Below are positions 26,703 through 49,257 of a stretch of DNA of 64,000 bases, piece after piece. The notes under the pieces are model-generated. The model had not been told where the DNA came from. It did no database searches and saw nothing but the letters and a program-made list of their open reading frames with translations. Source of the DNA: Daphnia pulex (Eukaryota > Arthropoda > Branchiopoda > Diplostraca > Daphniidae). Both the position numbers and the translations under genes were made by a program. Where the stretch lies: positions 3,472,001-3,536,000 of the forward strand of contig NC_060027.1 in the NCBI RefSeq assembly GCF_021134715.1, given 5' to 3'. How positions within the stretch are numbered: the stretch's first letter is position 1; every line of letters starts with the position of its first letter.

Positions 26703-27044
26703 AAAAGGAATGATTCGGTTTTATAGACCACATTAAATTAAAGGTCTTGAAGCACACTTAATGTACAGCTTTATTTAAGAATTTAACGTTTTAAATTGCA
26801 AAACTGAAAATGGCAATGTTGCGCCTTGCGCGTAACTTTCAAGATCAAGATGGCTGCTGACAGTCTGACAGCCTCGGCTCATAACTCAACCTACTCAACT
26901 TATTTTACCTGACATTACAATAATCGTCAAAAAAATTGGTAACTCCTGTTTGTATTCATTTGAGGCTATTAAATGCACATATTTTGTGTGGTACATTTAC
27001 AGATAACATAGCCTAGAATTTAGGCCTGAAAATTCCATCTGATC

Positions 27045-27353
27045 ATGTGGCCTGAAACTCCCAAAATTGTCGTCTCTTGCTGCACGTGCCGGCTGTGCGT
27101 ATCGTCTTATGTAGAAATACTTCAAAACAGTAAAAGTGATCATGTGTAACCCTAAGGTTACACATTTATTTATTTGATGACCTTGTTTCTGATAATAATA
27201 GTTTTTACTTTTCTATTAACAGCATGGTGAAGTCTGAGCTTCTTCATTGCAGTCCAATGTGTACAGTGCGATTTGTTGCAGCCAGCAGGCGAAAGGTGTT
27301 CTTCTTGCAGGCTTGCTACCTGTACCATTTGTAGCTTCTTCCAAACAATTTAA
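27045..27353 (+). CDS. Small CxxC-rich protein, two exons
   Basis: Proposed exons 27045-27129 and 27253-27353 join in phase (1 base plus 2 bases) to 61 residues. Exon 1 starts at ATG, reads MWPETPKIVVSCCTCRLC and ends at A|GTAAAA; exon 2 follows CATTGCAG and reads QCVQCDLLQPAGERCSSC, then a further CxxC (CTIC) before TAA. Four close cysteine pairs suggest zinc binding, but I do not recognise a family. Support for coding: related copies of both exons lie on the minus strand at 42165-42470, and a partial copy at 41815-41890, where they are frameshifted or have lost cysteines. The palindrome begins 190 bases downstream. Alternatives: a noncoding transcript duplicated with the region, or part of a mobile element. 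Confidence 0.4.
27138..27165. repeat. Short perfect hairpin in the intron of the CxxC gene
   Basis: TGTGTAACC and GGTTACACA are separated by CTAA, giving a nine-base perfect stem with a four-base loop. It lies just after the proposed donor at 27130. Function unknown. Confidence 0.6.
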
Positions 27354-27393
27354 ACTAATTAAATTGATCAACTTTTTTCAGTGAGGCTACACA

Positions 27394-27651
27394 TTAAATT
27401 TGTTGGTAACTAGCTCTTCGTTTTACATCTATTGACTTTACAGTTAAGACTGTTAAATAGTATAAATTTAAGAGAAAAAGTAATAAAATAAGCTTGCCAA
27501 CTATTGATTCCTTTGTAAAAGTAGTTCTTAGAGATTGCTTAGTTGACGCGGAGGTGTTGCCCATTGAGGGGTTTTGGTGACAAGGAGTCACTGAACGAAA
27601 CGCTAAACCAAATGAAAAAAATAATAAAAAAGGTAATGCTAGGTACGACAT
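27394..27651 (-). pseudogene. Truncated secreted-protein start, left palindrome edge
   Basis: Reading outward, the frame starts at ATG 27651 with MSYLALPFLLFFSFGLAF, a good hydrophobic signal peptide. It crosses the arm boundary at 27544 after about 36 codons and continues into unrelated DNA to a stop at 27394. The mirror copy at 39821 has one extra T in the run after codon 7 and therefore a different downstream frame. Family not recognised. It is either the 5' end of a gene cut by the event that made the palindrome or a chance frame behind a real promoter. Confidence 0.35.
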
Positions 27652-27702
27652 GAAGCTTTTGCTTTCGCAGGAAATAATTTGAATTTGTTTGGAGCCAACG
27701 AT

Positions 27703-27713
27703 CCTTTATATAT
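27703..27713 (-). promoter_or_regulatory. TATA-type promoter facing out of the left arm
   Basis: GGATATATAAAGG on the minus strand lies about 52 bases before ATG 27651, a spacing that fits a short 5' UTR. The copy in the right arm (39759-39768) is conserved. Confidence 0.5.
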
Positions 27714-28369
27714 CCGAGCCGAGTCCTTTCCGTCTACATTCGGTGTGAAGAGCAAAACCCAAATTTCAACCCATTTCACTGATTAGCAACGAAAACAAAG
27801 CGAGTGTCAAAACATTGTTTTACTTGCGCATACTTTATTGTGGCAGAAACACGTTGGTCATGTAACAGGGTGGAATTTTTTTTCCATTTTGTTCATGCAG
27901 CATCAAACGACACGATAGGTTCCGGCGGTAATCAACTATTCAAGATGGTAGACATGTCAATGTAAAAGACAGGGTAAGGGTAGCTCCTGTAAATGTTATT
28001 CATTAATGTAAAAAAGCTGCTAGTAGGATCTCATTGTTGATTTGCGGTTACAAAATCCATAGCCCTAGAGTTCAGGTAATGTCAATCAATCAATTGATTT
28101 GCGTTTTAGATACTCCTAAATAAGTTGTGGAAATACGATTCCCCCCCCCCCTTCTCCTGGATGATTACTAAGGATCATCTAAGTATATTTTTGAGTTATT
28201 CGTTGTGAACGTAGCGGACGAACTCTGACAGTCTATCGAGCTTTAGCAATTGCGTCTAATTTCTTATTTTATTGATTTTATTCAACCGTTTAATGAGAAG
28301 CTTTGATTTGTATTTTTCTTTATTAATAATTTACCTTTTTTCATCTTTTTTTTTTTTTTATTTTCTTCT

Positions 28370-29130
28370 CCGACCGCTTTGAGCCAATGGAAAACCGAGA
28401 AGGTGAAAGCGGAAAGTGTTAATGTTTTGCTCAAAGCTAATGTGGAGGGTGCCACATTAGTGTAATGAGTTTTGGAAGACTACAAGGTCGCATTGACCTT
28501 AAACAATGGTTAAAAGGTAAACAGTTATTTCTGTGCATGTTTTAGCGATGTTAATTAAAATCTAAAAATTATTTCAGCAGATTTAAACTGACCATGTCGT
28601 CGCTGCTGTCGGTTGGGATGCAAACATGGATTTGGCTGTTGCTTTTGGTTTGAAAATAGAGGAGAGGAGATTTTGGTGGTTATCGAGTCAATACCAAGCT
28701 TGAAGCATGATCGAACGTTTGTTTGGTAAGAATCCTTGAACATTTTATTTCATATTAATTGAACTATTGTGATTAAAACTTGACCAACATTGACTGCTCT
28801 AATGTTGTTTTTAGATAGTATATGAAGTTCTTGTTAAATTAGATTCTAATTATTGGGTTTGGACTTTATTTTTTATTAGGTTGGAGATGTTGCGTTCTTT
28901 TGTGATATCAAATTGGGTCGCTGTTGTATGTTGTATCAGGGCGATTGGCGGGAGAGAACAATACTGGCAAAGAAACATGGATGAAAAACTGCAGTGCACT
29001 GTTGCCAAGTGCATTCTTCGTCGTATTATCAGTACGCAATCGGGTAAATATTCTGTTTCACGGAGTTTTTATAAATTATTGTTTTTTATCTGTTTGTGTA
29101 CCATATTGAATATTAATGTTCAAATTATTT
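28370..29130 (+). pseudogene. Unrecognised exon relics, left arm
   Basis: Three exon-like stretches separated by AG/GT-like sites: about 28381-28510, 28577-28710 and 28880-29042. The first corresponds to the right-arm text LSQWKTEKVKAEIVNVLLKA but is broken here by a small insertion with a stop near 28465; the second reads DHVVAAVGWDANTDLAVAFG in the right-arm version; the third contains [20 protein letters not shown] recognise no family. The left copy is the more damaged one. Confidence 0.25.
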
Positions 29131-29152
29131 ACCGCATAGTTGATGTGATGTC

Positions 29153-30024
29153 GTGATGTTGCCGTTTGCCGTATCGTTGAAGGCTGGGTCGATCACTGGT
29201 GTAGCGATGTCTCCTGGGTATAGCGGATACCAAAGCACCACACCGCCGCCTTACTACACAACAACAACATTCGCAAAAACCGGTTACTACACTGAGGCAC
29301 ACAATTCCTACACCACCAAGGCTCCAGAGTATTATACCACAGCTGATGCTGCCCCGAGTTACACCATCAAACGTACTACACCGAGGCTCCAAAGTACTAA
29401 AACCACCAAGTCACCGGAGTATTACACGTATGTTGCCCCAGATTGCTGCACCGAGGCTCCCAAGTATTACCTAGTTCCTAGCTACTACACCGAGGCTCCA
29501 ACTTATACACCACCAAAGCGGCTGAATACTACACCGAGCCGCCCAAGTACTACACCAACAAGGCTCCAGAGTATTACACCACAACTTGTGCTTCCCCGAG
29601 CCTCTACACCGAAGCCCCGAAGTATTACTTTGCCCTAAGCTACACAACTACAACTGAGGCGGCCAAGTACTACGCAGCCCCAACTTACTACACAGCGGCT
29701 GCTCCTTCGTACTACGTTGAATCGGAATACTACACCTAGGATTCAGTTTACTACACCACAACCTTCGCTACACCGAGGTCCCTATGTACTACACTACCAA
29801 GGCACCTGAGTATTATAACACTACTTTCGCTGCTCCGACCAACTACACCAATGCTCCGAAGTATTACTCTATCCCGAGATACTACACCACTAAGGTACCT
29901 GAATATTACACCACACCTCACGCTTCTCCAACTTACTACAGGGACGCTCCTAAATATTATAACTATGTTCAGATTTGTCGGTCATATCTTAATAGTTACT
30001 TGTCACTGGGAATTGTTGATCTTT
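29153..30024 (+). pseudogene. Decayed tyrosine-rich repeat protein gene, left arm
   Basis: About 290 codons' worth of units of the type YYTTKAPEYYTT and YYTEAPKYY, alternating between frames. The opening part (MSPGYSGYQSTTPPPYYTTT) runs in one frame to about 29360; the unit YYTEAPKY then appears in a second frame, and the frame shifts again near 29395 and 29505. Stops occur at 29636 and 29736. Such proteins are likely extracellular or cuticular; the repeat style is one I associate with Daphnia. It points toward the palindrome centre, as does its mirror copy at 37441-38310. Confidence 0.6.
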
Positions 30025-30568
30025 AATAGGGAAATAATTTTTTTAAAACCTGGGTAATCATTGTGTACGACTTCTCTTGTCACCTAAAAGCCTTAAGACA
30101 TTGCGACGTTTTCTTATTTTGGTTGGGTCTTTCCTATTTCGCATGTTGGAGGTGACTATTACTCTAGTCGCTCCGCATTGCGACATATTCTAGTGTTTGG
30201 ACGAACTTCATTTACAGGGTAAATTACGAAAGAGACGTACTGTGTGGTGTTTACTAAAATTGTTTGATGTTTACAGTTCTTTCTACGTAAGTGTTACTAT
30301 TCTTTTTAACGTAAGTTGGCGTAACAAAAGAGCTGTAAATAGTGTGTGGTTTATCATAGAAGTTTATTTGAAGAATGTGGAGTTTATCAGTTGCTTGCAT
30401 ATAACTTATGTAAAACTTGAAAGTTGTAAAAAATACACAAAGTCGTAAACTAAACATTTTTTTATTACAAGTTATGAAACATAGCAAACAAAAACATTAA
30501 AAGGAATTGCTTTATTGTCCCACCTCCACCCACAATTCCACCACATTTTACAATCACATACATACAAG

Positions 30569-30883
30569 TTAACCCGTTGGCTGCCACGCCATACAACCCG
30601 TAGGTTGCTCTCTACTACTCTACGCGCCACGTCTGAAGGATCTATGGCCAAGGTGGAACTTGCCATTGCTGACAAGTCCGGGCTGACACGGTGACAGAAG
30701 AATCCATCACCGCATCGACAAAGGGGAACTAGGTATGGTGCATTGCCTAACAGGCGCCTTGCGGCAAGTTTTGGGCTGGTGCGACTTTCCGACCCCTCGG
30801 CATGAAAACCACGAGGCCGAACAGCGCACGCAGCCCGTGCTAAGGAGCAGGGGAGAACAAAGGCGTGGCAACCAACAGGTTAA
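30569..30883. mobile_element. piggyBac-type MITE, left arm
   Basis: Bounded on both sides by TTAA (30569-30572 and 30880-30883). Terminal inverted repeats CCCGTTGGCTGCCACGCC and GGCGTGGCAACCAACAGG differ at two sites. Length is 311 bases plus one target copy and it has no transposase. TTAA targets and CCC/GGG-like ends are typical of the piggyBac superfamily. The same insertion is in the mirror position of the right arm (36580-36894), so it predates the arm duplication. Confidence 0.8.
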
Positions 30884-31146
30884 CTAACACTAACACATAT
30901 TACCAACAACAAATAATGATCCGCGCTGACACTTTGGAGATACCGGCGATGTTTTGGTGTCAATCTTCTCGACGTCTCCTCTGCATCATCTGAAGAAAGA
31001 GAAAAAATTCTTATTTAAGTGACATGCCAATAAAAAGTTACATAATACATGTAGGTACATCGATCTGTTATTTTTGGCTCAAAACTTTAAAGGCGCGCTT
31101 TAAATTGCTTAAAATATAGCTAACAATATTGAAAACTGTACACATA

Positions 31147-31533
31147 ACAAAGCTCACTTGCTAGTCTTTAAAAAAAATTCCGGAAGTAAACCGGAAGTAG
31201 CCACAGCGCCTCAACCATTGAGCTGTCGTCAAATTAAACCACATATTCGTGATCTCCATGAAATTTGGGGTCGATTGGGTGTGATTTAAACGAAATCCAA
31301 AATTTGGCCAAAATCGAGAATTTTCCTGAACTATAGTTCAGGAAAATTTTCAAAACCGGAAGTACGAAAACGTACAAAACGAAACATGAACTTTACCACA
31401 AATTCGACGAGGATCACGAATATGTGGTTCTTTTGTGCGTCAGATGAATATTTACTGAACTACTTACTGAAATGAGTAAACCGGAAGTAGAAAAAAAAAG
31501 CAATTATCGAAAATTTAACAAGTGAGCTTTGTT
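31147..31533. mobile_element. MITE with ACAAAGCTCACTTG ends, left arm
   Basis: The 14-base end at 31147-31160 is matched by its reverse complement at 31519-31532. The roughly 390-base interior has an internal perfect palindrome (TTTTCCTGAACTATAGTTCA followed by GGAAAA, near 31323-31348) and several ACCGGAAGTA motifs, which resemble ETS-factor sites. Superfamily not assigned. Present symmetrically in the right arm. Confidence 0.65.
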
Positions 31534-31799
31534 GGGGGAATAATAATCGTCAGTTATCACTAAATATTTCAACAAAATAACTGTCGATACATGTTTAAAG
31601 AGATGTTCAAAGTAACAGAAACTGACATTAAACAGCTGCAAATTATCAGAAAGCCATCTAGCGTTGGAAAAAAGAAGCGTCCAAGTAAACTTTGTTTGCG
31701 CGCAAGAAGGGCCTAATTTTGGAAACTATTACACAGACACAGTCTAACACAACTAGACTATTGGTAGATAACCTAAGAAAATAAGTCAATTGTTGGGTA

Positions 31800-32040
31800 C
31801 CTAGGCATAATCCCGTGGTGAGTGACTGCAGGTGTTAACAGCGGACGGAAGCGATCTTCAAGTGGTCCAGAAACTCGCCAAGTCTCCAGTGAAGTAAAAC
31901 AAATCTTGTTTAAAAGCAGTGAAGCTAGATGAGCGTGCGTCGCGAAGATAAGGATGGAGAAGAATGTTGTTGAAAGTCCTTCTTCCGTCATGGACAAAGG
32001 TCAGCATCATTGGCACAAGAATCTCCGTGCTCTGTAAAAA
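31800..32040 (-). pseudogene. Unrecognised exon relic, left arm (mirror of 35437)
   Basis: After TTTTACAG on the minus strand (near 32035) the frame reads MLTFVHDGRRTFNNILLHPY and stops near 31858. The right-arm copy reads MLTFVHDGRGTSRNVLLHPY. The shared protein text beside unequal downstream frames suggests a once-coding exon; family unknown. Confidence 0.3.
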
Positions 32041-32519
32041 CAAATTTTTAACATTACTGAAAATATAACAATGAATGAAGCATATCAATTTTTACCTTTT
32101 TTTAATAAGCACACAGAAATGCTCATAATGAAAAAACTGTAAAAATTGAATTCACAGCAACAAACAGCATTACTCCACATGTTGAGATAAATTTCCTGAT
32201 GCTAAAGAAAGTGTCATGAAGTATGCATGGTGATAGGTGGTATTGATGCTTACCTTTATCATATGGGTGAATGTTGCTGAATTTAGTATTAGTAATAGTA
32301 AGGCATTAGACGTGGTGTGGTTGGTGTGGTAGCAATAATGGGGAAATACCTTGTCCCCACACATTCTATTCCACGATATGTGAGCTTCACACATAGTTTT
32401 AGGCTTTTGACAACATGATGGGTCTATTGGATTGAAAGTGACTGAGCGCTAAGTCAACTTTTTGGAATGACTGACAGTATGCATCTAAAATTTGAAGAAA
32501 TAAGTTGGTATAGTATAAA

Positions 32520-34129
32520 AATACGAAAAAGCTATTGCAACGTCAGGCTGACGTTGCTATAGTGTATTTTGGCTATTGCAACGTCAGGCCGCTAGGTGCG
32601 CTGCAGTCTGACGTTGCGCTATGCCAGCGCATAGCTATGCTGGAGGCTTGGAGCAACGTCAGGCCGCTAGGTGCGCTGCAGTCTGACGTTGCGCTATCCC
32701 AGCGCACTGAGTCCCTTTCTATAGCTAAAATAATGTTGGAGGCTTGAAGCAATGTCAACCAACCACTTAATGCTAAAAATCATATGTAATAGCTGCATAA
32801 AATGACAGAGAGAATCAATCTGACGTTGCTCTATTCTTACTTCCCTTTGTCGCTGCAGGCTGACGTTGCGCTATCTTAGCGTACCCGAGTCCCTTTCTTA
32901 AGCTTGGAGCAACGTCAACCAACTACTTAATTCTAAAATTCGTGTATAATGTTGTATACCTGCATCCCGACCTGCACAGTATGTATAAACTCCTATAAAT
33001 TCATAGAGAATCAATCTGAATTTGCGCTATCATTCTTCACTTCGTCAGCCAACTCATATTTTAATGCTACGGTCAGGTGCGCTGTTGTCTGACGTTGCGC
33101 TATCGTAATGGGCCTCTTAGTGTAGTAAAGTATTTCCCGGAGCAACGTCAGGCCCTTTAATTCTGACGTTTGCTACCCTCTACTGCTAGGCTATTACCCC
33201 CGTCATAGGCGCTGGATCAAAATCATTGGACATATGAAACTAATGCTTTAATTTTTAAAAGTGTCCAAAAAGAAAAATAAAGAGAACCAGTAAAAGTTGT
33301 GCAAATCGGTGAGCTAACGGAACAATAATGAGAATATCATCTGATGGAATTTCTTCCTGGCGGGATTTGGCAAAACATTCATACAGTATTTAAGCGGGAT
33401 CCTGTTATAGTATTATAAAGCTGTAAGAATGGAATGGGATGCAATATGATAGCGCAACGTCAGACTACAGCGCCTAGCGGCCTGACGTAAGTTCAGCATG
33501 GTCATAAAGAGAGGCTCAGCGGTAGGCTTGGCGGTAGGATTAGATTAGGATCAGAGATTCGGGTAAGCAACGCAAACGCTCCAGCAATATATGTATAATG
33601 TAGGAATATATAGCGCAACGTCAGATTGATTCTCTATAAATTCATAGGAGTTTTAACATATTATGGCAGTATAAAACATTATACATGAATTGTAGCATTA
33701 AGTAGTTATTGACGTTGCTCCAAGCTTAAGATTAAGAAAGCGACTCGGTTGCGCTGGGATAGAGCAACGTCAGACTGCAGCGACGAAGTCAAGTAGGATA
33801 GAGACGGTAAAGACGGATAGAGAACGTCAGATTGATTCTCTCTGACATATTATGCAGCTATTACATATTATTAGCATTATTTGAAATTTATATTCTCTAC
33901 ATATTTTGTAGCATTAAAATTAAATGGTTCATTAACGTTGCTCCAAGCCTCCAGCATAGCTATGCGCTGGCATAGCGCAACGTCAGACTGCAGCGCACCT
34001 AGCGGCCTGACGTTGCTCCAAGCCTCCAGCATAGCGCAACGTCAGACTGCAGCGCACCTAGCGGCCTGACGTTGCAATAGCCAAAATACACTATAGCAAC
34101 GTCAGCCTGACGTTGCAATAGCGACGACC
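32520..34129. repeat. Inner inverted repeat packed with CAACGTCAG/CTGACGTTG motifs
   Basis: This 1.6-kb block has its own symmetry centre near 33327, about 400 bases left of the arm centre. About 25 copies of CAACGTCAG or its complement CTGACGTTG occur, many extended to CTGACGTTGCGCTAT. At both ends the motif forms a perfect 21-base palindrome (32537-32557 and 34096-34116). Spacers such as GGCCGCTAGGTGCGCTGCAG recur. The interior (about 33180-33440) is non-repetitive AT-rich DNA acting as the loop. TGACGT is the core of CREB/ATF sites; whether that matters here is unknown. Confidence 0.85.
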
Positions 34130-34645
34130 ATAAAAATAAGTAAATTAGGTCAAGTTAAACCTACACAAGTTACGAAGTTCAATTTGTTATATGAAATCAC
34201 AGGAATATAAGTATTAATTCGCATCCAATTGTTTCACCCATTTTGCCTCGTTTCACGATAAACAACAAGGGCGACACTAGCGACATCTGGTAATGAGTTT
34301 TGAATCCTAAGTTGGTTGCAATATTATTAAAGATACCCGACAATAGAACTCCAGCGACAATAGAACTCAAATATTTTATTTAAAAAAAAAAAATACCCGA
34401 ACAATAGAACTCCACTACGAGACAATAGAACTCCGATAATTTGAGCTGCGACTGTACAACCAACTTAGGATTCAAAACTCAAGATGTCGCCAGTGTCGCC
34501 TTTGTTGTTGTTACAAACGAGGCGAAGCCGAAAAGGGCGAAACAAAACTGTAGCTAATTTATACTTATATTCCTGTGATTTCAATTACCAAATTGAATTT
34601 CGTATCATGTGTAGGTTTATCTTGACCTAGTTTCCTTATTTTTAT
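34130..34645. mobile_element. Foldback MITE inserted only on the right side
   Basis: About 516 bases. Long imperfect terminal inverted repeats begin ATAAAAATAAG and end CTTATTTTTAT and extend about 220 bases inward (AGGTCAAG... versus ...CTTGACCT, and GTCGCC-type text near 34270 and 34490). The loop carries four copies of ACAATAGAACTCC. The mirror position on the left (near 32510-32530) reads as an empty site with ATTTTTAT once, so this insertion is younger than the palindrome. Confidence 0.7.
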
Positions 34646-34999
34646 ACTGTACCAACTTATTTCTTCAAATTCTAGTCTTCTAGATGCATACTGTCAGTGT
34701 CAGTCATTCCAACAAGTTGACTTAGCGCTCAGTCAATTTCCATCCATTAGGCCCATCATGCTGTCAAAAGCCTAAAACTTATGTTTAAAGACCACATGTA
34801 GTGGAAAACAAATCTGCCGAGATAAAGTATTTCCCCATTACTGCTACCAGACCATTACAATTCAGATTTTCTTATTATTACATAGGTGTGAACCATATAA
34901 GACTTTTCTGAATCTTGCAATTTTTGTGGCGCACCCTGCAACAGCATTTTTGTTGTTATGGATGTTTTTACTTCTGTTTAGAAGGCAACCCAGCTTAGA

Positions 35000-35260
35000 A
35001 ATAGGTACAGTTTTATTTCTCATGGGTAAATTTATGTCAATTTATAAGTAACATAGAGAATTTCCTTGTCCCATTGCCACTTTCAGTTTCAGAGACATGA
35101 AGCATGTGGAGTGAATAACCTGCCATGTGTATGCACATGTACCAGATCTGCTTGATGAAAGTCAAATGCCTTACTAAATTCATCTCCCATATGATAAGGT
35201 AAGCATCAATACCACCTATCACCATACTACTGCAATACTTCATGACACTTTCTTTGGCAT
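35000..35260 (-). other. Open frame in a right-arm-specific stretch
   Basis: A minus-strand frame (35037-35243) reads IIWEMNLVRHLTFIKQIW and IHMAGYSLHMLHVSETESG. The left arm at the matching place (32160-32290) is shorter and different, so about 300 bases here have no mirror partner. Family not recognised. Confidence 0.2.
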
Positions 35261-35436
35261 CAGGAAATTTACATCAACCTCAGGAGTAAGCCTGTTGGTT
35301 GCTGTGATTTCCATTTTTGCGGTTTTTTATCATGAAAACTTCAGTGTGCTTGTTAGTATAGGTAAAGATGGAAATGCTATATTAACTGTTATATTTTCAA
35401 TTCATTAATGCAATACATCTTTTTTTTCTTTACAGA

Positions 35437-35662
35437 GCATGTAAAAGATCCTAATAAGCCAATGCTGACCTTTGTCCATGACGGAAGAGGGACATCCAGA
35501 AACGTTCTGCTCCATCCTTATCTTCCCGACGTACACTCATCTAGATTCACTGCTTTTGCTGCTACAACTTGTCTTACTTCACTGACCAGTTGGAACACTT
35601 CAGTGGTCGCTACCCCTTTGCTGTTAAACACCTGCAGTCACTCACCACGGGATTATGCCTAG
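35437..35662 (+). pseudogene. Unrecognised exon relic, right arm
   Basis: Follows a strong acceptor (TTTCTTTACAG, ending 35436). Reads EHVKDPNKPMLTFVHDGRGT and LLHPYLPDVHSSRFTAF, then loses its frame; a second frame gives SYFTDQLEHFSGRYPFAVKH from about 35570. Compared with the left copy the gain or loss of single bases is visible, so neither is an intact gene. Function unknown. Confidence 0.3.
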
Positions 35663-35930
35663 GTACCCAACAATTGACTTATTTTCTTAGGTTATCTACC
35701 AATAGTCTAGTTGTGTTAGACTGTGTCTGTGTAATAGTTTCCAAAATTAGGCCCTTCTTGCGCGCAAACAAAGTTTACTTGGACGCTTCTTTTTTCCAAC
35801 GCTAGATGGCTTTCTGATAATTTGCAGCTGTTTAATGTCAGTTTCTGTTACTTTGAACATCTCTTTAAACATGTATCGACAGTTATTTTGTTGAAATATT
35901 TAGTGATAACTGACGATTATTATTCCCCCA

Positions 35931-36317
35931 ACAAAGCTCACTTGTTAAATTTTCGATAATTGCTTTTTTTTTCTACTTCCGGTTTACTCATTTCAGTAAG
36001 TAGTTCAGTAAATATTCATCTGACGCACAAAAGAACCACATATTCCTGATCCTCGTCGAATTTGTGGTAAAGTTCATGTTTCGTTTTGTACGTTTTCGTA
36101 CTTCCGGTTTTGAAAATTTTCCTGAACTATAGTTCAGGAAAATTCTCGATTTTGGCCAAATTTTGGATTTCGTTTAAATCACACCCAATCGACCCCAAAT
36201 TTCATGGAGATCACGAATATGTGGTTTAATTTGACGACAGCTCAATGGTTGAGGCGCTGTGGCTACTTCCGGTTTACTTCCGGAATTTTTTTTAAAGACT
36301 AGCAAGTGAGCTTTGTT
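35931..36317. mobile_element. MITE with ACAAAGCTCACTTG ends, right arm
   Basis: Mirror copy of 31147-31533, with the same ends, the same internal palindrome and the same ACCGGAAGTA motifs; nearly identical by eye. Confidence 0.65.
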
Positions 36318-36579
36318 ATGTGTACAGTTTTCAATATTGTTAGCTATATTTTAAGCAATTTAAAGCGCGCCTTTAAAGTTTTGAGCCAAAAATAACAGAT
36401 CGATGTACCTACATGTATTATGTAACTTTTTATTGGCATGTCACTTAAATAAGAATTTTTTCTCTTTCTTCAGATGATGCAGAGGAGACGTCGAGAAGAT
36501 TGACACCAAAACATCGCCGGTATCTCCAAAGTGTCAGCGCGGATCATTATTTGTTGTTGGTAATATGTGTTAGTGTTAG

Positions 36580-36894
36580 TTAACCTGTTGGTTGCCACGC
36601 CTTTGTTCTCCCCTGCTCCTTAGCACGGGCTGCGTGCGCTGTTCGGCCTCGTGGTTTTCATGCCGAGGGGTCGGAAAGTCGCACCAGCCCAAAACTTGCC
36701 GCAAGGCGCCTGTTAGGCAATGCACCATACCTAGTTCCCCTTTGTCGATGCGGTGATGGATTCTTCTGTCACCGCGTCAGCCCGGACTTGTCAGCAATGG
36801 CAAGTTCCACCTTGGCCATAGATCCTTCAGACGTGGCGCGTAGAGTAGTAGAGAGCAACCTACGGGTTGTATGGCGTGGCAGCCAACGGGTTAA
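36580..36894. mobile_element. piggyBac-type MITE, right arm
   Basis: Mirror copy of 30569-30883, with TTAA at 36580-36583 and 36891-36894. The 67-codon frame starting inside it (36788-36991) extends beyond the element and is read as chance. Confidence 0.8.
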
Positions 36895-37440
36895 CTTGTA
36901 TGTATGTGATTGTAAAATGTGGTGGAATTGTGGGTGGAGGTGGGACAATAAAGCAATTCCTTTTAATGTTTTTGTTTGCTATGTTTCATAACTTGTAATA
37001 AAAAAATGTTTAGTTTACGACTTTGTGTATTTTTTACAACTTTCAAGTTTTACATAAGTTATATGCAAGCAACTGATAAACTCCACATTCTTCAAATAAA
37101 CTTCTATGATAAACCACACACTATTTACAGCTCTTTTGTTACGCCAACTTACGTTAAAAAGAATAGTAACACTTACGTAGAAAGAACTGTAAACATCAAA
37201 CAATTTTAGTAAACACCACACAGTACGTCTCTTTCGTAATTTACCCTGTAAATGAAGTTCGTCCAAACACTAGAATATGTCGCAATGCGGAGCGACTAGA
37301 GTAATAGTCACCTCCAACATGCGAAATAGGAAAGACCCAACCAAAATAAGAAAACGTCGCAATGTCTTAAGGCTTTTAGGTGACAAGAGAAGTCGTACAC
37401 AATGATTACCCAGGTTTTAAAAAAATTATTTCCCTATTAA

Positions 37441-38310
37441 AGATCAACAATTCCCAGTGACAAGTAACTATTAAGATATGACCGACAAATCTGAACATAG
37501 TTATAATATTTAGGAGCGTCCCTGTAGTAAGTTGGAGAAGCGTGAGGTGTGGTGTAATATTCAGGTACCTTAGTGGTGTAGTATCTCGGGATAGAGTAAT
37601 ACTTCGGAGCATTGGTGTAGTTGGTCGGAGCAGCGAAAGTAGTGTTATAATACTCAGGTGCCTTGGTAGTGTAGTACATAGGGACCTCGGTGTAGCGAAG
37701 GTTGTGGTGTAGTAAACTGAATCCTAGGTGTAGTATTCCGATTCAACGTAGTACGAAGGAGCAGCCGCTGTGTAGTAAGTTGGGGCTGCGTAGTACTTGG
37801 CCGCCTCAGTTGTAGTTGTGTAGCTTAGGGCAAAGTAATACTTCGGGGCTTCGGTGTAGAGGCTCGGGGAAGCACAAGTTGTGGTGTAATACTCTGGAGC
37901 CTTGTTGGTGTAGTACTTGGGCGGCTCGGTGTAGTATTCAGCCGCTTTGGTGGTGTATAAGTTGGAGCCTCGGTGTAGTAGCTAGGAACTAGGTAATACT
38001 TGGGAGCCTCGGTGCAGCAATCTGGGGCAACATACGTGTAATACTCCGGTGACTTGGTGGTTTTAGTACTTTGGAGCCTCGGTGTAGTACGTTTGATGGT
38101 GTAACTCGGGGCAGCATCAGCTGTGGTATAATACTCTGGAGCCTTGGTGGTGTAGGAATTGTGTGCCTCAGTGTAGTAACCGGTTTTTGCGAATGTTGTT
38201 GTTGTGTAGTAAGGCGGCGGTGTGGTGCTTTGGTATCCGCTATACCCAGGAGACATCGCTACACCAGTGATCGACCCAGCCTTCAACGATACGGCAAACG
38301 GCAACATCAC
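37441..38310 (-). pseudogene. Decayed tyrosine-rich repeat protein gene, right arm
   Basis: Mirror copy of 29153-30024 with the same frame breaks and the same stops, pointing toward the centre. Because both copies share the disruptions, the gene was already broken before duplication or was homogenised by gene conversion afterwards. Confidence 0.6.
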
Positions 38311-38352
38311 GACATCACATCAACTATGCGGTAAATAATTTAAAATTAATAT

Positions 38353-39120
38353 TCAATATGGTACACAAACAGATAAAAAACAATAATTTATAAAAACTCC
38401 GTGAAACAGAATATTTACCCGATTGCGTACTGATAATACGACGAAGAATGCACTTGGCAACAGTGCACTGCAGTTTTTCATCCATGTTTCTTTGCCAGTA
38501 TTGTTCTCTCCCGCCAATCGCCCTGATACAACAGCATGGTGATCATGTTCCATACAACAGCGACCCAATTTGATATCACAAAAGAACGCAACATCTCCAA
38601 CCTAATAAAAAATAAAGTCCAAACCCAATAATTAGAATCTAATTTAACAAGAACTTCATATACTATCTAAAAACAACATTAGAGCAGTCAATGTTGGTCA
38701 AGTTTTAATCACAATAGTTCAATTAATATGAAATAAAATGTTCAAGGATTCTTACCAAACAAACGTTCGATCATGCTTCAAGCTTGGTATTGACTCGATA
38801 ACCACCAAAATCTCCTCTCCTCTATTTTCAAACCAAAAGCAACAGCCAAATCCGTGTTTGCATCCCAACCGACAGCAGCGACGACATGGTCAGTTTAAAT
38901 CTGCTGAAATAATTTTTAGATTTTAATTAACATCGCTAAAACATGTACAGAAATAACTGTTTACCTTTTAACCATTGTTTAAGGTCAATGCGACCTTGTA
39001 GTCTTCCAAAACTGCACCTTCCACATTAGCTTTGAGCAAAACATTAACAATTTCCGCTTTCACCTTCTCGGTTTTCCATTGGCTCAAAGCGGTCGGAGAA
39101 GAGAAGAAAATAAAAAAAAA
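38353..39120 (-). pseudogene. Unrecognised exon relics, right arm
   Basis: The better-preserved copy of the relics at 28370-29130. Reads TALSQWKTEKVKAEIVNVLL, with KANVEGAVLEDYKVALTLNN following it to a stop (39091-38968), then after a TTTCAG acceptor DHVVAAVGWDANTDLAVAFG (about 38770-38900), and [20 protein letters not shown] (about 38440-38568). The third stretch has 12-18 bases absent from the left copy. No family recognised. Confidence 0.3.
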
Positions 39121-39758
39121 AAAAAAAGATGAAAAAAGGTAAATTATTAATATAGAAAAATACAAATCAAAGCTTCTCATTAAACGGTTGAATAAAATCA
39201 ATAAAATAAGAAATTAGACGCAATTGCTAAAGCTCGATAGACTGTCAGAGTTCGTCCGCTACGTTCACAACGAATAACTCAAAAATATACTTAGATGATC
39301 CTTAGTAATCATCCAGGAGAAGGGGGGGGGGAATCGTATTTCCACAACTAATATTTAGGAGTATCTAAAACGCAAATCAATTGATTGATTGACATTACCT
39401 GAACTCTAGGGCTATGGATTTTGTAACCGCAAATCAACAATGAGATCCTACTAGCAGCTTTTTAACATTAATGAATAACATTTACAGGAGCTACCCTTAC
39501 CCTGTCTTTTACATTGACATGTCTACCATCTTGAATAGTTGATTACCGCCGGAACCTATCGTGTCGTTTGATGCTGCATGAACAAAATGGAAAAAATTCC
39601 ACCCTGTTACATGACCAACGCGTTTCTGCCACAATAAAGTATGCGCAAGTAAAACAATGTTTTGACACTCGCTTTGTTTTCGTTGCTAATCAGCGAAATG
39701 GGTTGAAATTTGGGTTTTGCTCTTCACACCGAATGTAGACGGAAAGGACTCGGCTCGG

Positions 39759-39768
39759 ATATATAAAG
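39759..39768 (+). promoter_or_regulatory. TATA-type promoter facing out of the right arm
   Basis: ATATATAAAG lies about 52 bases upstream of ATG 39821 and is conserved with the left-arm copy. Confidence 0.5.
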
Positions 39769-39820
39769 GATCGTTGGCTCCAAACAAATTCAAATTATTT
39801 CCTGCGAAAGCAAAAGCTTC

Positions 39821-39976
39821 ATGTCGTACCTAGCATTACCTTTTTTTATTATTTTTTTCATTTGGTTTAGCGTTTCGTTCAGTGACTCCTTGTCACCAAA
39901 ACCCCTCAATTGGCAACACCTCCGCGTCATCTGGGTAATACAAACAATTGAATTTGTAGCTTTAGAAATTTGACTA
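39821..39976 (+). pseudogene. Truncated secreted-protein start, right palindrome edge
   Basis: Opens MSYLALPFFIIFFIWFSVSF, a hydrophobic N-terminus, and runs about 50 codons, crossing the arm boundary at 39929. One extra T relative to the left copy changes the frame after codon 7. Not recognised. Confidence 0.3.
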
Positions 39977-40012
39977 ACGTGTAATTACGTACCCTCGTTT
40001 AAGCCCCGATGG

Positions 40013-40357
40013 ATGGCAACCCTAAAGGATTCAGGATTGTCCGGACTGCTCAAAGGAGGCATTGTTCTAGATTTAAATTCTTATTTTAACAGACCATCCG
40101 GTTCAAACTGCAGCCAGTCAAGCAAGGGAAGACACTGCCCGACTGACTCGACCAGGGAGATTACTCGGCCATGGTTAAGAGAAACCGAAAAAAGAGCGAA
40201 GAGAGCTGAGGAGCAGTTATTACGAGAGCGATTAATCTTAGTAGGCTTCCGGCTTGGACTCATGACCCTCCAACAGATTTCATCGAATCATGCGCCTTGC
40301 AAGTCCCCGTTCGACCAAACATCTCCCTTCCTCCTGGTTGTCGCAGCGAGTGAGTGA
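40013..40357 (+). CDS. Hypothetical protein with charged helical stretch
   Basis: An uninterrupted 114-codon frame with an ATG start just outside the palindrome. The middle (RPWLRETEKRAKRAEEQLLR) is strongly charged and likely helical or coiled coil. No domain is recognised, no introns are needed, and no promoter was identified. It could equally be an exon of a larger gene or part of an old element. Confidence 0.3.
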   Translation: MATLKDSGLSGLLKGGIVLDLNSYFNRPSGSNCSQSSKGRHCPTDSTREITRPWLRETEKRAKRAEEQLLRERLILVGFRLGLMTLQQISSNHAPCKSPFDQTSPFLLVVAASE

Positions 40358-40399
40358 CCACCGGCGGGCGTTGGTTAGTGGTTATTTAGGGAAACGGGG

Positions 40400-43300
40400 C
40401 CACTGAAGAAGGGAGCCCAGATTATGCACTTGTAATTTATCTACATAATTTATTGATCAATCTTGAATTTCAGCAACGTCTTCTTAGTTTCACCGGTGGA
40501 TCAAGTCTAAGCAACGGCGGCAAACGAATCAACTGAAATGAAAACGGAGAAGGAGATATTAACTAAATCAGTAATTAAATGCGACTGAACATCAAGCATT
40601 ACCTCAGCGGCGGTACAGCTAGCAAGAGAAGCGACATATCGACAAAATGCTGCCTATTAAAAAAAGCCCGACAGCCATCAGGGAACTTCGACAATTTTAC
40701 ACAACAGTTCAACACTGCATGGCCACCAACATAGGCAAATGACACATTTAAGTGTGATGTTTAACTGCAAGTCTGCACAAACTCCATTTCAACCCATCTC
40801 CCAACTGGAAAATGGCTGCAAAATCCCTGCACACCAAACAGCAACACCAAATATAGCTCAAACAAATGGCAGTGGAAAACTACAAAGTACAAAGAAATAA
40901 ACATTAATAAACCAATAACATTTTGAAATGTGAAAAAAGATACAAAAAATAATATTAAGCAAAACCAAAAATGCAAGTGAAGTTTAACTTAGCTTACAAT
41001 TGTAAAATAAATGGTTCAAACGGTAATGATTGTTCAAACGGTAAAAAGTTGTTAAGGTAATGATTTTTCTTCAAATTTACACTATAAATTATAGAAAAAG
41101 AAATTATGAAGATGGCCAAAAATCATCACATCATGAAGATTTCATTTCACATTTTTGAGAATGAAGGGAATTTCTGTTCTGTTAGAGCAACAAAAATTTC
41201 CGACTCATAACAAACTGACACCTAAGTTTCAACAAAAGCTGTCTTATTTGGAAGCACAAAATAAGATGTCACTTGTCTTCAACATCAAGAAAAATAATGC
41301 TAACCTACTTGAATTATCTTACAAGTGCATTACCACCATTTCAGATTTTCTTTTTTCATCACATTTTTTTTGTGCAATGCAGTTGAGACCCTCTCAAAGA
41401 CGCATCTTCATGACACGACAACGATCACGTGGAGAAAGGCAAGATCTTCCGACATGCTCTGAAAACAAAAATGATAATAGTATTAAGAAAATGGACTATC
41501 CGAAAAGTCAAAACTCTCACGATTCACTTACTTGCTTTAGAATTGTTAACTTTCGAATTGCATGGAAGATACCTCATTGTTTCTAAATGTAAAACCGAAA
41601 AACACCGTCAGCAACACATTTCCGTCCACTATCTAAAAGCAAATATGGCAGAATTTCGTCAGTGACTCACAAACAGACTCTCCGAGTCTCCGCCACCTTG
41701 TGGACACAATTTTACATACCTAGTGACAAGTTAACAAATTTATTAAATTCTTAACATAAAGGAACCCTGAATGGTCCATAGTTAAATTATCAATACCAGC
41801 ACAACAGTCTGCATGCAACAGCTCACCACACCGTTCACCAGCTGGCTGCACCAAATCCATGTGCACATTGGACTACAACGAAGAGGCTCAGAAGTTGAGG
41901 GGCTACTAATCCTACTTGGAAAAAAAAATCAATACTATCAGAAAGCAAAGTACATGACAAAATGACAGAAGCATAGTTAAACTAAGCAATCTCTAATTAC
42001 TTTTACATATATTACACAGGACGGTCACATTTGGCAAGCTTTAAAACAGTCTAAACTGAAATTTCAACAAATATAAAGCAAACAGCTTGTCATCAACAAA
42101 GTAAATAATGTATAGCCTTACTTTAGTAAAGGTTGACTTGATTATTTCATATTGTTCTGAAGTGTTTCAGCATGTGACAAAAGCTACAACCAGTACAGGT
42201 TGCCAGCCTGTAAGAGAAACACCTTTCACCAGCTGGCTGCAACAAATCCATGTGCACATTGGACTGAAATGAATAAGCACAGACTTCACCAGGCTGTTTA
42301 CGGAAAAATGAAGATTCAATAAATAACTAAATATGTAACCTTATGGTTTAACAGTTGACCAACATAATTACTTTTACCGTACTGTTCTGAATCTCTTCAT
42401 CAAACGAAATGTGCAGCAAGAGACAACATTTTGGGAAAATTACAGCAGTTTCAGGCCACATGGTCAAATGGAATTACCAAGTATAAATTGTAGGCTATGT
42501 GCCTATGTTATGTCGCTGCTTGTCAACAAACCTACAATAGATCGTGTTTTCGGAAGTAACAGTTTAATCAAATTATTGAAAACCTGAAATTCCACATAGA
42601 CTTTCAAAACGAGAAACGACTGATTTAAGCGGATTTAAGTTTAAGGCCCTAGGCCCCTAGCCCTACACAACCATGCCAAAATCACAATCCCATAAAAAAT
42701 AATTAAAAGATAATCTAAGCATAATTTAAACGAAATTTGTCTACACCAGCAAGTTGTTAAATTACAATTTCTTTCAAATCAACATAAACGAAATACAAAC
42801 ACTCGTAGAAGAAAATAAAACGAATTTACCAAAACGCGGTCATCTGTCACGCAAGTTTTTCACTCTGGAAGCCATTTTGGGAGATGCAGCATTGCCACGA
42901 GACGCATGAAATAATAAATTTGCAATTTTTTTTATTTGGCGGTGTGGCAATGTGGTGTGGCGGAATTTGTTAATGATTTCGAATGTTCATAGCATATAAA
43001 AATAGGAAAACGTCCGTCTCTGAAAAGAATGTTGCTGAAAGCAATTAAGTTTAAAAAATTTAAGTATAATTAGTTAATTACATTAGGATAAGAAAGAATG
43101 CAAAGATTTGCAGGTATTCTTCAAGACCGGCAGTCCCAGAGTCATAGGCTACTTAACTCTTCCAAGTACGGAAACCCATCCACTGCAATTGTATCAAAAA
43201 GTTGTCAAATAAAACAGAATATTTACGGAAAATTGGAGACTTGAATATCCACGATGCAAACTTTGCGCTCCCTTAAGGAAATTCAATTTGCAACAAGGTT

Positions 43301-46603: not shown

Positions 46604-46753
46604 CCCGAAGGTGGTCATCATGAAGTTAAGAACTTCTTGGTTGCGTTCCCAAATGGCGCCGGCGATCAGCTGCTGCAGCTCGAGGAAAGTGGGTTGAACG
46701 CAGAACATGGTGGAGACGGCGGCGATACGGATATCGGTGGTCTCAGTGGCCAT
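46604..46753 (-). CDS. First coding exon of an unknown minus-strand gene
   Basis: Exactly 50 codons from ATG 46753 to TTC GGG, followed by a consensus GTAAGT donor. It reads MATETTDIRIAAVSTMFCVQ and continues PTFLELQQLIAGAIWERNQE. Codon use is GC-rich and regular, unlike the AT-rich flanks, which argues for real coding. It starts 92 bases from the VMO1-family start on the other strand, so the two would share a divergent promoter. No family recognised; following exons were not found. Confidence 0.5.
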
Positions 46754-46845
46754 TAAGGATCAGGAGAAGAGGAGCAGAAAAGAACTTGTTGCGGTTAACA
46801 ATTCAGATTCCCTACAGCGTTTCGTCACGACAGCCGCTACTAAAA

Positions 46846-47547
46846 ATGTTGAAATTCACTTTCCTGTTGGTCTTGGCCGTTGGCGTCATTGCCAGTTGGA
46901 ATCATCAATCGTTCCAACCACTCCGCCTCCCCAAACCAGCACGACGACGACGAGACGGCCGAGACAGGTCATCACGGTCACCAACGGAGAAACGGAAGGC
47001 CAATGGGGACCGTTGGAGCGCTGCCCAAAAGGCGCCCGAGTCGTCAGCTACCAGACCCAGAACGAACTGGCCACTCCCCGATTCGACGACACGGCACTCA
47101 ACACCATCGTCCTCTTCTGCAACGATGAATTCATCACCAACTTCACCTTCACTGCTGGATTGTAAGAATTTAATGAAATTGGGAAAAGAATTTCAAAAAA
47201 AAAAAAAATCATTTGTACTTAAATATTTACGCAGTTCCGAGATTTTCACGGGATTCAGACTTGCGCTTTCGGCGGTTACATGACGAGTTTCCAGTTGAGG
47301 GTCAGTCCTGCCGCACCAGAGGCCGACAACACGGCGGCAAACGACATCCGTTTCAAGTGCTCCAGCGGCGATGAAATCAACGGACTCGGCAACACCGGCG
47401 GAACGTGGGGCGACTACAGCGAAGTCTGCGAGAATGGAATTTGCGGAATGGAGACCCGCGTCCAGCCGTACGAAGGCGGAATCGGCCACTACGACAACAC
47501 CTTGGTTCAAGGCCTTGAACGACGTTCGCTTCACTTGCTGCAATTGA
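46846..47547 (+). pseudogene. VMO1: Vitelline membrane outer layer protein 1 (VMO1) homologue with frame breaks
   Basis: Secreted beta-prism protein family. Exon 1 46846-47161 and exon 2 47235-47547 with a 73-base GT/AG intron. Signal peptide MLKFTFLLVLAVGVIAS is in one frame; the Thr-rich linker and first repeats (VITVTNGETEGQWGPLERCP, then FDDTALNTIVLFC) are in another. After the intron the frame changes again before CAFGGYMTSFQLRVSPAAPE, DNTAANDIRFKCSSGDE and GTWGDYSEVCENGICG. Near the end a 10-base insertion separates DNT from ALNDVRFTCCN and the natural stop. Family residues (paired DDTALN/DNTAAN motifs, conserved Cys, Trp-Gly) are otherwise well kept. Three disruptions suggest a young pseudogene, or indel errors in the assembly of a working gene. 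Confidence 0.8.
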
Positions 47548-49157: not shown

Positions 49158-49257
49158 CGTCTTCAACTACGTGCTGACATCAAATCTGACAATGGAGAGA
49201 TCTGTGACGTCTTCAACTACGTGCTGACATCAAATCTGACAATGGAGAGATCTGTGA
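49158..49257. repeat. Perfect 50-base tandem duplication
   Basis: A 50-base unit beginning CGTCTTCAACTACGTGCTGA occurs twice in direct succession (49158 and 49208) with no differences over the copy, indicating recent slippage or unequal exchange. Confidence 0.9.

Follow-up and report, generated by a model that had tools for sequence, protein, structure and literature searches.

Palindromes kept alike by gene conversion are usually viewed as something that rescues sex chromosomes or asexual genomes. Palindromes of the mammalian X and Y chromosomes have large, near-identical inverted arms around a spacer, with conversion preserving their identity (PMC8981503), the arms of sex-chromosome palindromes hold gene families (PMC5997626), and inverted duplicates in Adineta vaga and Folsomia candida, animals with little or no sex, are proposed to permit conversion (PMC7953838). 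The last of these studies tabulates 19 gene-order palindromes for A. vaga and 15 for F. candida, and Daphnia pulex and two other species were excluded from its palindrome screen for lack of annotation (PMC7953838). Here we describe a palindrome in a stretch of 64,000 nucleotides (nt) of D. pulex DNA (the window; assembly GCF_021134715.1, contig NC_060027.1, positions 3,472,001 to 3,536,000) together with its relatives in the same genome (133,188,837 bases in 13 contigs were searched; contig labels C1-C12 are used, and the window is C11:3472001-3536000). Compared by eye with PDB 4xnn, a D. pulex protein, one glycosyl hydrolase exon of this genome shows differences at 7 of 105 residues. We consider it highly probable that the window palindrome belongs to a dispersed family, most compared members of which descend from a single ancestor, and that the arms of these palindromes have been homogenised by conversion.

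Like the palindromes of sex chromosomes, that of the window has kilobase-scale inverted arms of very high identity around a spacer, kept alike by conversion after the palindrome had formed (concerted evolution), and its arms carry members of a multicopy gene family, though the window copies look frameshifted by eye. An amplicon such as those of sex chromosomes had been one suggestion of the initial annotation of this DNA, and the evidence for conversion between the arms supports that likeness. Unlike those palindromes, the family is spread over 12 contigs with many members from one ancestor, its arms measure kilobases and not tens of kilobases, and the gene copies read are mostly broken-looking. 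It is not confined to a sex chromosome, as convergent pairs were found on all contigs C1-C12 when the two lists of motif and gene sites described below were combined; Daphnia is not known to have sex chromosomes, and the animal has sexual and asexual lines. The palindromes of parthenogenetic animals are palindromes of gene order (PMC7953838), whereas here one unit is repeated. With Drosophila hairpin-RNA loci (PMC10292708, PMC10317233) the family shares an inverted arrangement from which a hairpin might be transcribed. Converting palindromes are known already, and a dispersed family from a single ancestor is an unusual variant; a literature search covering papers open without subscription gave no earlier report of such a family, and the word "palindrome" was absent from the Daphnia genome papers searched for that term. 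Its dozens of copies at graded distances are replicates for conversion rates, tract ends and the spared central zone, and for annotation its identical inverted gene pairs are prone to collapse or misassembly.

Histories of the arms and of the centre

One old palindrome, centred near 34387, lies in the window together with one insertion and one truncated left end, in place of the three nested layers of the initial annotation. The near-identical inverted arms reported there were confirmed, as the homogenised parts (left 27541..31839 on the forward strand, right 35623..39932 on the reverse strand) are ~99.6% identical, 17 substitutions and 9 short insertions or deletions separating them over 4280 aligned columns, with only 3 of the substitutions falling between 28628 and 31836 (left-arm coordinates), and the longest gap-free inverted pair (29119-31836 with 35627-38344) is 2718 nt long, far above chance expectation. 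Between the arms lies an asymmetric spacer of ~130 bp (34321..34449) with CAATAGAACTCC-like repeats, which by eye is homologous in palindromes S, C and B and inverted in Q. Adjoining this centre are two zones that are not homogenised. The left one (31840..32514, forward strand) clusters with its left-hand equivalents in C, B and F and resumes, by comparison with other palindromes, at 34139..34320 on the same strand beyond an inserted transposon, while the right one (34450..35622, reverse strand) includes ~300 bp (near 34855-35160) that the left one lacks.

Eleven palindromes were read in part (W, that of the window, and B, C, F, G, I, M, S, AA, P and Q). Arm identity was 96-100% in the main self-alignment pieces of all of these except Q, the 96% of W spanning its inner zone, and the arms of Q were 100% identical beyond the inner zone in an identity profile. 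Such profiles, taken in bins of 200 aligned columns that start at the centre and move away from it, showed in 5/5 palindromes an identity of 61-94% near the centre that rose to 98-100% further out, the step being abrupt in W (61, 90, 79, 74, 82, then 100%, some outer bins 98-99), S (68, 89, 80, 80, 86, then 100%), Q (83, 84, 94, then 100%) and P (86, then 100%) and more gradual in AA (84, 84, 74, 84, 94, 98, 99, then 100%, some outer bins 98-99). The GC content of the arms is ~40% against 36-37% in the inner zone (W, S, AA), which would fit GC-biased conversion and is confounded by content, so no claim is made from it.

Trees of the outer and inner parts disagreed with one another. In the outer tree (17 rows from 9 palindromes, F with one row only) the left and right rows of one palindrome joined in all eight palindromes that had both rows. 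In the inner tree (also 17 rows) the left halves of W, C, B and F joined together, as did their right halves, and S and I were consistent with this grouping by side, I in reverse orientation. Approximately unbiased (AU) tests, for which the groups were chosen after the first trees had been inspected, rejected an own-arm clade in the inner tree for each of the three palindromes tried (W, 2e-43; C, 4e-105; S, 4e-20) and rejected a left-arm clade of W, C, B and F in the outer tree (3e-5, the program leaving identical rows free). As rows group by side near the centre and by palindrome further out, one ancestral palindrome spread and conversion between its arms followed. We find that W, C, B, F, S and I share ancestry in their central halves and were homogenised later, and we also find the insertion and the truncation described below; the two central halves in the window predate the split of at least 6 palindromes.

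Changes private to the window palindrome were mostly present in both of its arms. Over the 3230 columns in which B, C and F are identical (two blocks, I excluded), 64 private substitutions were in both arms compared to 2 in the left only and 6 in the right only. An earlier count with I as fourth outgroup (360 shared by the arms, 6 in the left and 5 in the right only) was set aside for apparent misalignment at a deletion of ~2 kb in the window. This deletion is itself in both arms (at 28377/28378 and 39088/39089) and lacking in both arms of the seven palindromes with alignable flanking blocks (B, C, G, I, S, M, F), AA not being alignable there. The ongoing gene conversion that the initial annotation had raised is therefore upheld by the discordant trees, the identity profiles and the private substitutions (64 against 8).

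We propose that the ancestor would have carried a tyrosine-rich gene and its downstream DNA opposite their own inverted copy, with a spacer of ~130 bp between, and that this palindrome would have been copied to many chromosomal sites. Within every copy one arm would have overwritten the other repeatedly through non-allelic gene conversion, either by intrachromatid fold-back or between sisters, and thereby new mutations, including the ~2-kb deletion, would have entered both arms; conversion would halt ~0.2-1 kb from the centre, where the old difference between the halves would persist. Later, in the window, a Mutator-like foldback transposon entered the left arm, and that arm was shortened at 27541. 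Segments were probably swapped between palindromes as well; the conversion pathway, the dispersal route and this exchange are what we infer from the patterns described. The distances between palindromes disagree between gene and core (I and B differ by 2.8% in the gene and 13.0% in the core, G and I by 2.0% in the core and 5.6% in the gene), a conflict that, we suggest tentatively, might be expected if palindromes also exchange segments.

Insertion and ends of the window palindrome

The inner inverted repeat near 33327 in the initial annotation does exist, but it is a transposon and not a layer of the palindrome. We take 32524..34129 (1606 bp) as a probable Mutator-like foldback element inserted in the left arm, with inverted ends of ~0.5 kb that are 73% identical in a gapped alignment and, judged by eye against six palindromes with empty sites (C, F, B, S, G and M), a target site duplication ATAAAAATA at 32515..32523 and 34130..34138. 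The sequence is uninterrupted and the element absent in 6/6 other palindromes whose sequence was read there (C, S, F, B, G, M), and so the inverted repeat is a separate transposon whose own symmetry produced the apparent second layer; a duplication seeded by this motif-rich centre, as had been suggested, is not supported, as that centre is a later arrival with empty sites elsewhere. The inner 1592 bp of the transposon (32531-34122) have a 100% identical copy on contig C12, and 3 of 4 copies inspected (window, C12 and C10) each have a 9-bp target duplication of their own, only one end of the C8 copy being located. A 9-bp target duplication is characteristic of Mutator elements, and foldback elements of the Mutator superfamily are alike in this and in their long inverted ends, a likeness that applies to the 1606-bp insert only and not to the whole palindrome.

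The second foldback of the initial annotation, at 34130-34645, is also real, but was rejected as a separate element, since it sits in the middle of palindromes at other loci too and is therefore the true, original centre of the window palindrome.

The left arm is truncated at 27541, because the right flank beyond 39932 is still homologous to relatives and the left flank is not. The right flank (39933..41556, reverse strand) shares homology with other palindromes' outer arms, reaching 41556 in the case of M and 40956 in that of AA and C, and has no left equivalent. As many matches started at 27541 (query position 8) it had been considered a common terminus, but the flank comparison identified it as this truncation. 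Further out, the left flank at 27006..27454 (forward strand) has 69% inverted similarity to 42045-42500 in the flank alignment and is probably an older remnant of the outer arms in which homogenisation has ceased. A missed-adapter sequencing artefact seems unlikely because the flanks of the arms differ, arm-specific differences are present and one arm holds a 1.6-kb insertion. An Rfam scan of 27000-42500 gave 0 matches at gathering scores.

Dispersal of the palindromes and competing explanations

Probes from the arm, the centre and a gene fragment gave 57, 124 and 206 genome matches respectively (from the best 40 of 347, the best 40 of 366 and the best 150 of 1819 candidates scored). A 29-base arm motif, which lies inside a conserved stretch of 320 bp, has 311 genome sites when 3 or fewer mismatches are allowed (0 in the reversed control), and among the 97 exact sites listed all 28 pairs of close neighbours (<15 kb) were convergent. 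Similarly, 39 of 43 close neighbours (<20 kb) were convergent among 141 gene sites typed from the listed rows of gene-fragment matches, six rows having been omitted as they were judged second pieces of places already included. One divergent pair (C1:4614350-4615995, starts 1.2 kb apart) is the only one among the listed sites that lies outside a convergent pair. Another 29-base motif, at the right junction of the spacer, was found at 34 places (reversed control 0), of which 19 have both arms, 11 one and 4 none among the matches listed, a missing arm there not meaning absence. Two of these places are the two centre copies, in opposite orientation, that palindrome B holds at C5:351018-353988. The arm's conserved motif gave 0 matches in viral_contigs.

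The alternative that survives best, though we think it unlikely for the family as a whole, is that palindromes arose many times independently, each from a single gene unit with an inner end that would prompt tail-to-tail joining at one and the same point. The 4 unpaired copies of the conserved 320-bp stretch that were fetched all adjoin a tyrosine-rich gene, and in two of them, the single-arm copies L041 and L044, homology stops at the palindrome centre, so that single units could have come first and been joined more than once. Against this, W, S, C and B have one asymmetric spacer in common (inverted in Q), its junction motif is found at 34 places and the inner halves are side-specific, and therefore those palindromes had one ancestor. 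Independent joining may fit a minority alongside the single ancestor that we prefer, and several observations weigh against that preference. Besides the single copies, there is next to no spacer in AA and P, and grouping by side is unclear for the inner halves of these two and of Q, so these three may have formed separately; P and Q also have no row in the outer tree. Identity in the outermost 1 kb of S drops to 92-98%. Palindrome G (L014-L015, C2:397988-412550; ~14.5 kb, almost no spacer, 99.4% self-identity) has a left-type half on both sides in the inner tree, as if conversion had once crossed the centre, so that the centre is not always spared. The comparison also draws on one assembly, on sequence only and on parts of each palindrome.

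A giant foldback-type transposon, mobile as a unit with terminal inverted repeats of ~5 kb, is considerably less likely, although as an account of the dispersal route it is compatible with conversion and would suit the dozens of scattered copies with a conserved core on at least 9 contigs. Such an element should have fixed ends, and the initial annotation had proposed both a very large foldback element and a search for copies with the same ends; many copies were found, but where both arm ends were fetched the outer ends vary by palindrome (S 618/21514, AA 1151/18295, I 2954/19906, G 489/15051, in fetched coordinates). In non-exhaustive searches, no target duplication was seen at any of these ends, and none of the frames inspected was recognised as a transposase. 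Long frames were listed for nine palindromes (W, B, C, F, G, I, M, S and AA) and for parts of P and Q, and domain scans of a few identified RNase H in B, Pao retrotransposon domains in C and DUF6570 in F, with no domain in M. The Pao-type retrotransposon lies in the inner left part of palindrome C, at about C5:483900-492580 (L011-L012).

A recent inverted duplication of a single arm in situ, without conversion, is very improbable. The 99.6% arm identity over 4.3 kb would favour it, but identity is uneven, falling to 61-90% adjoining the centre, and the idea is contradicted by the discordant trees, in which central halves are related across palindromes by side and are older than the split of at least 6 of them, so that the recent origin considered in the initial annotation is not supported either. 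An assembly artefact (missed-adapter read-through or duplicated haplotypes) can be given hardly any weight for all that a single assembly is the source and G is almost spacerless, as the window arms differ by substitutions, insertions or deletions and flanks, the insertion with its target duplication is in one arm only, and even the arms of G differ (52 mismatches and 38 gaps in 14582 self-alignment columns, each difference counted from both sides).

The tyrosine-rich gene, the 320-bp stretch and other window features

Each arm of the window palindrome carries a fragment of a gene with tyrosine-, threonine- and proline-rich repeats, the left copy at 29144..29635 (forward strand; a frame of 164 amino acids which by eye the repeat pattern exits, as by frameshift) and its counterpart at 37828..38319 (reverse strand). 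By eye both window copies are broken by frameshifts and most other copies read likewise, although other gene-fragment matches have long open frames (up to 557 amino acids among the matches listed). Tyrosine-rich repeats of such type occur in Daphnia proteins. A Pfam scan of 5 tyrosine-rich frames gave 0 families, and a literature search for four peptide strings gave no matching paper.

The conserved 320-bp stretch, at 31200..31520 (forward strand) with its mirror at 35943..36263 (reverse strand), shows 94-100% identity in the best 40 of 605 candidates, a favourable sample, compared to mostly 64-79% in local matches to the gene parts of distant members. Selection could account for this likeness, as could inter-locus conversion or a recombination signal. 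A more speculative idea, to which we give little credence, is that the stretch might be a cis element that starts recombination and so drives both arm conversion and exchange among palindromes of different chromosomes; if true, the family would be one autosomal recombination system, self-homogenising and self-spreading, with a 320-bp element in hundreds of copies. At about 30487-30530, where the conserved core starts in several comparisons, there is, by eye, an AATAAA on the reverse strand, so that antisense transcription may proceed outward from the centre of the palindrome.

Outside the palindrome, the window holds a frame of 152 amino acids at 46707-47162 with a vitelline membrane outer layer protein I domain (PF03762, E 1.4e-14) and, at 49158-49257, a perfect tandem duplication of a 50-bp unit.

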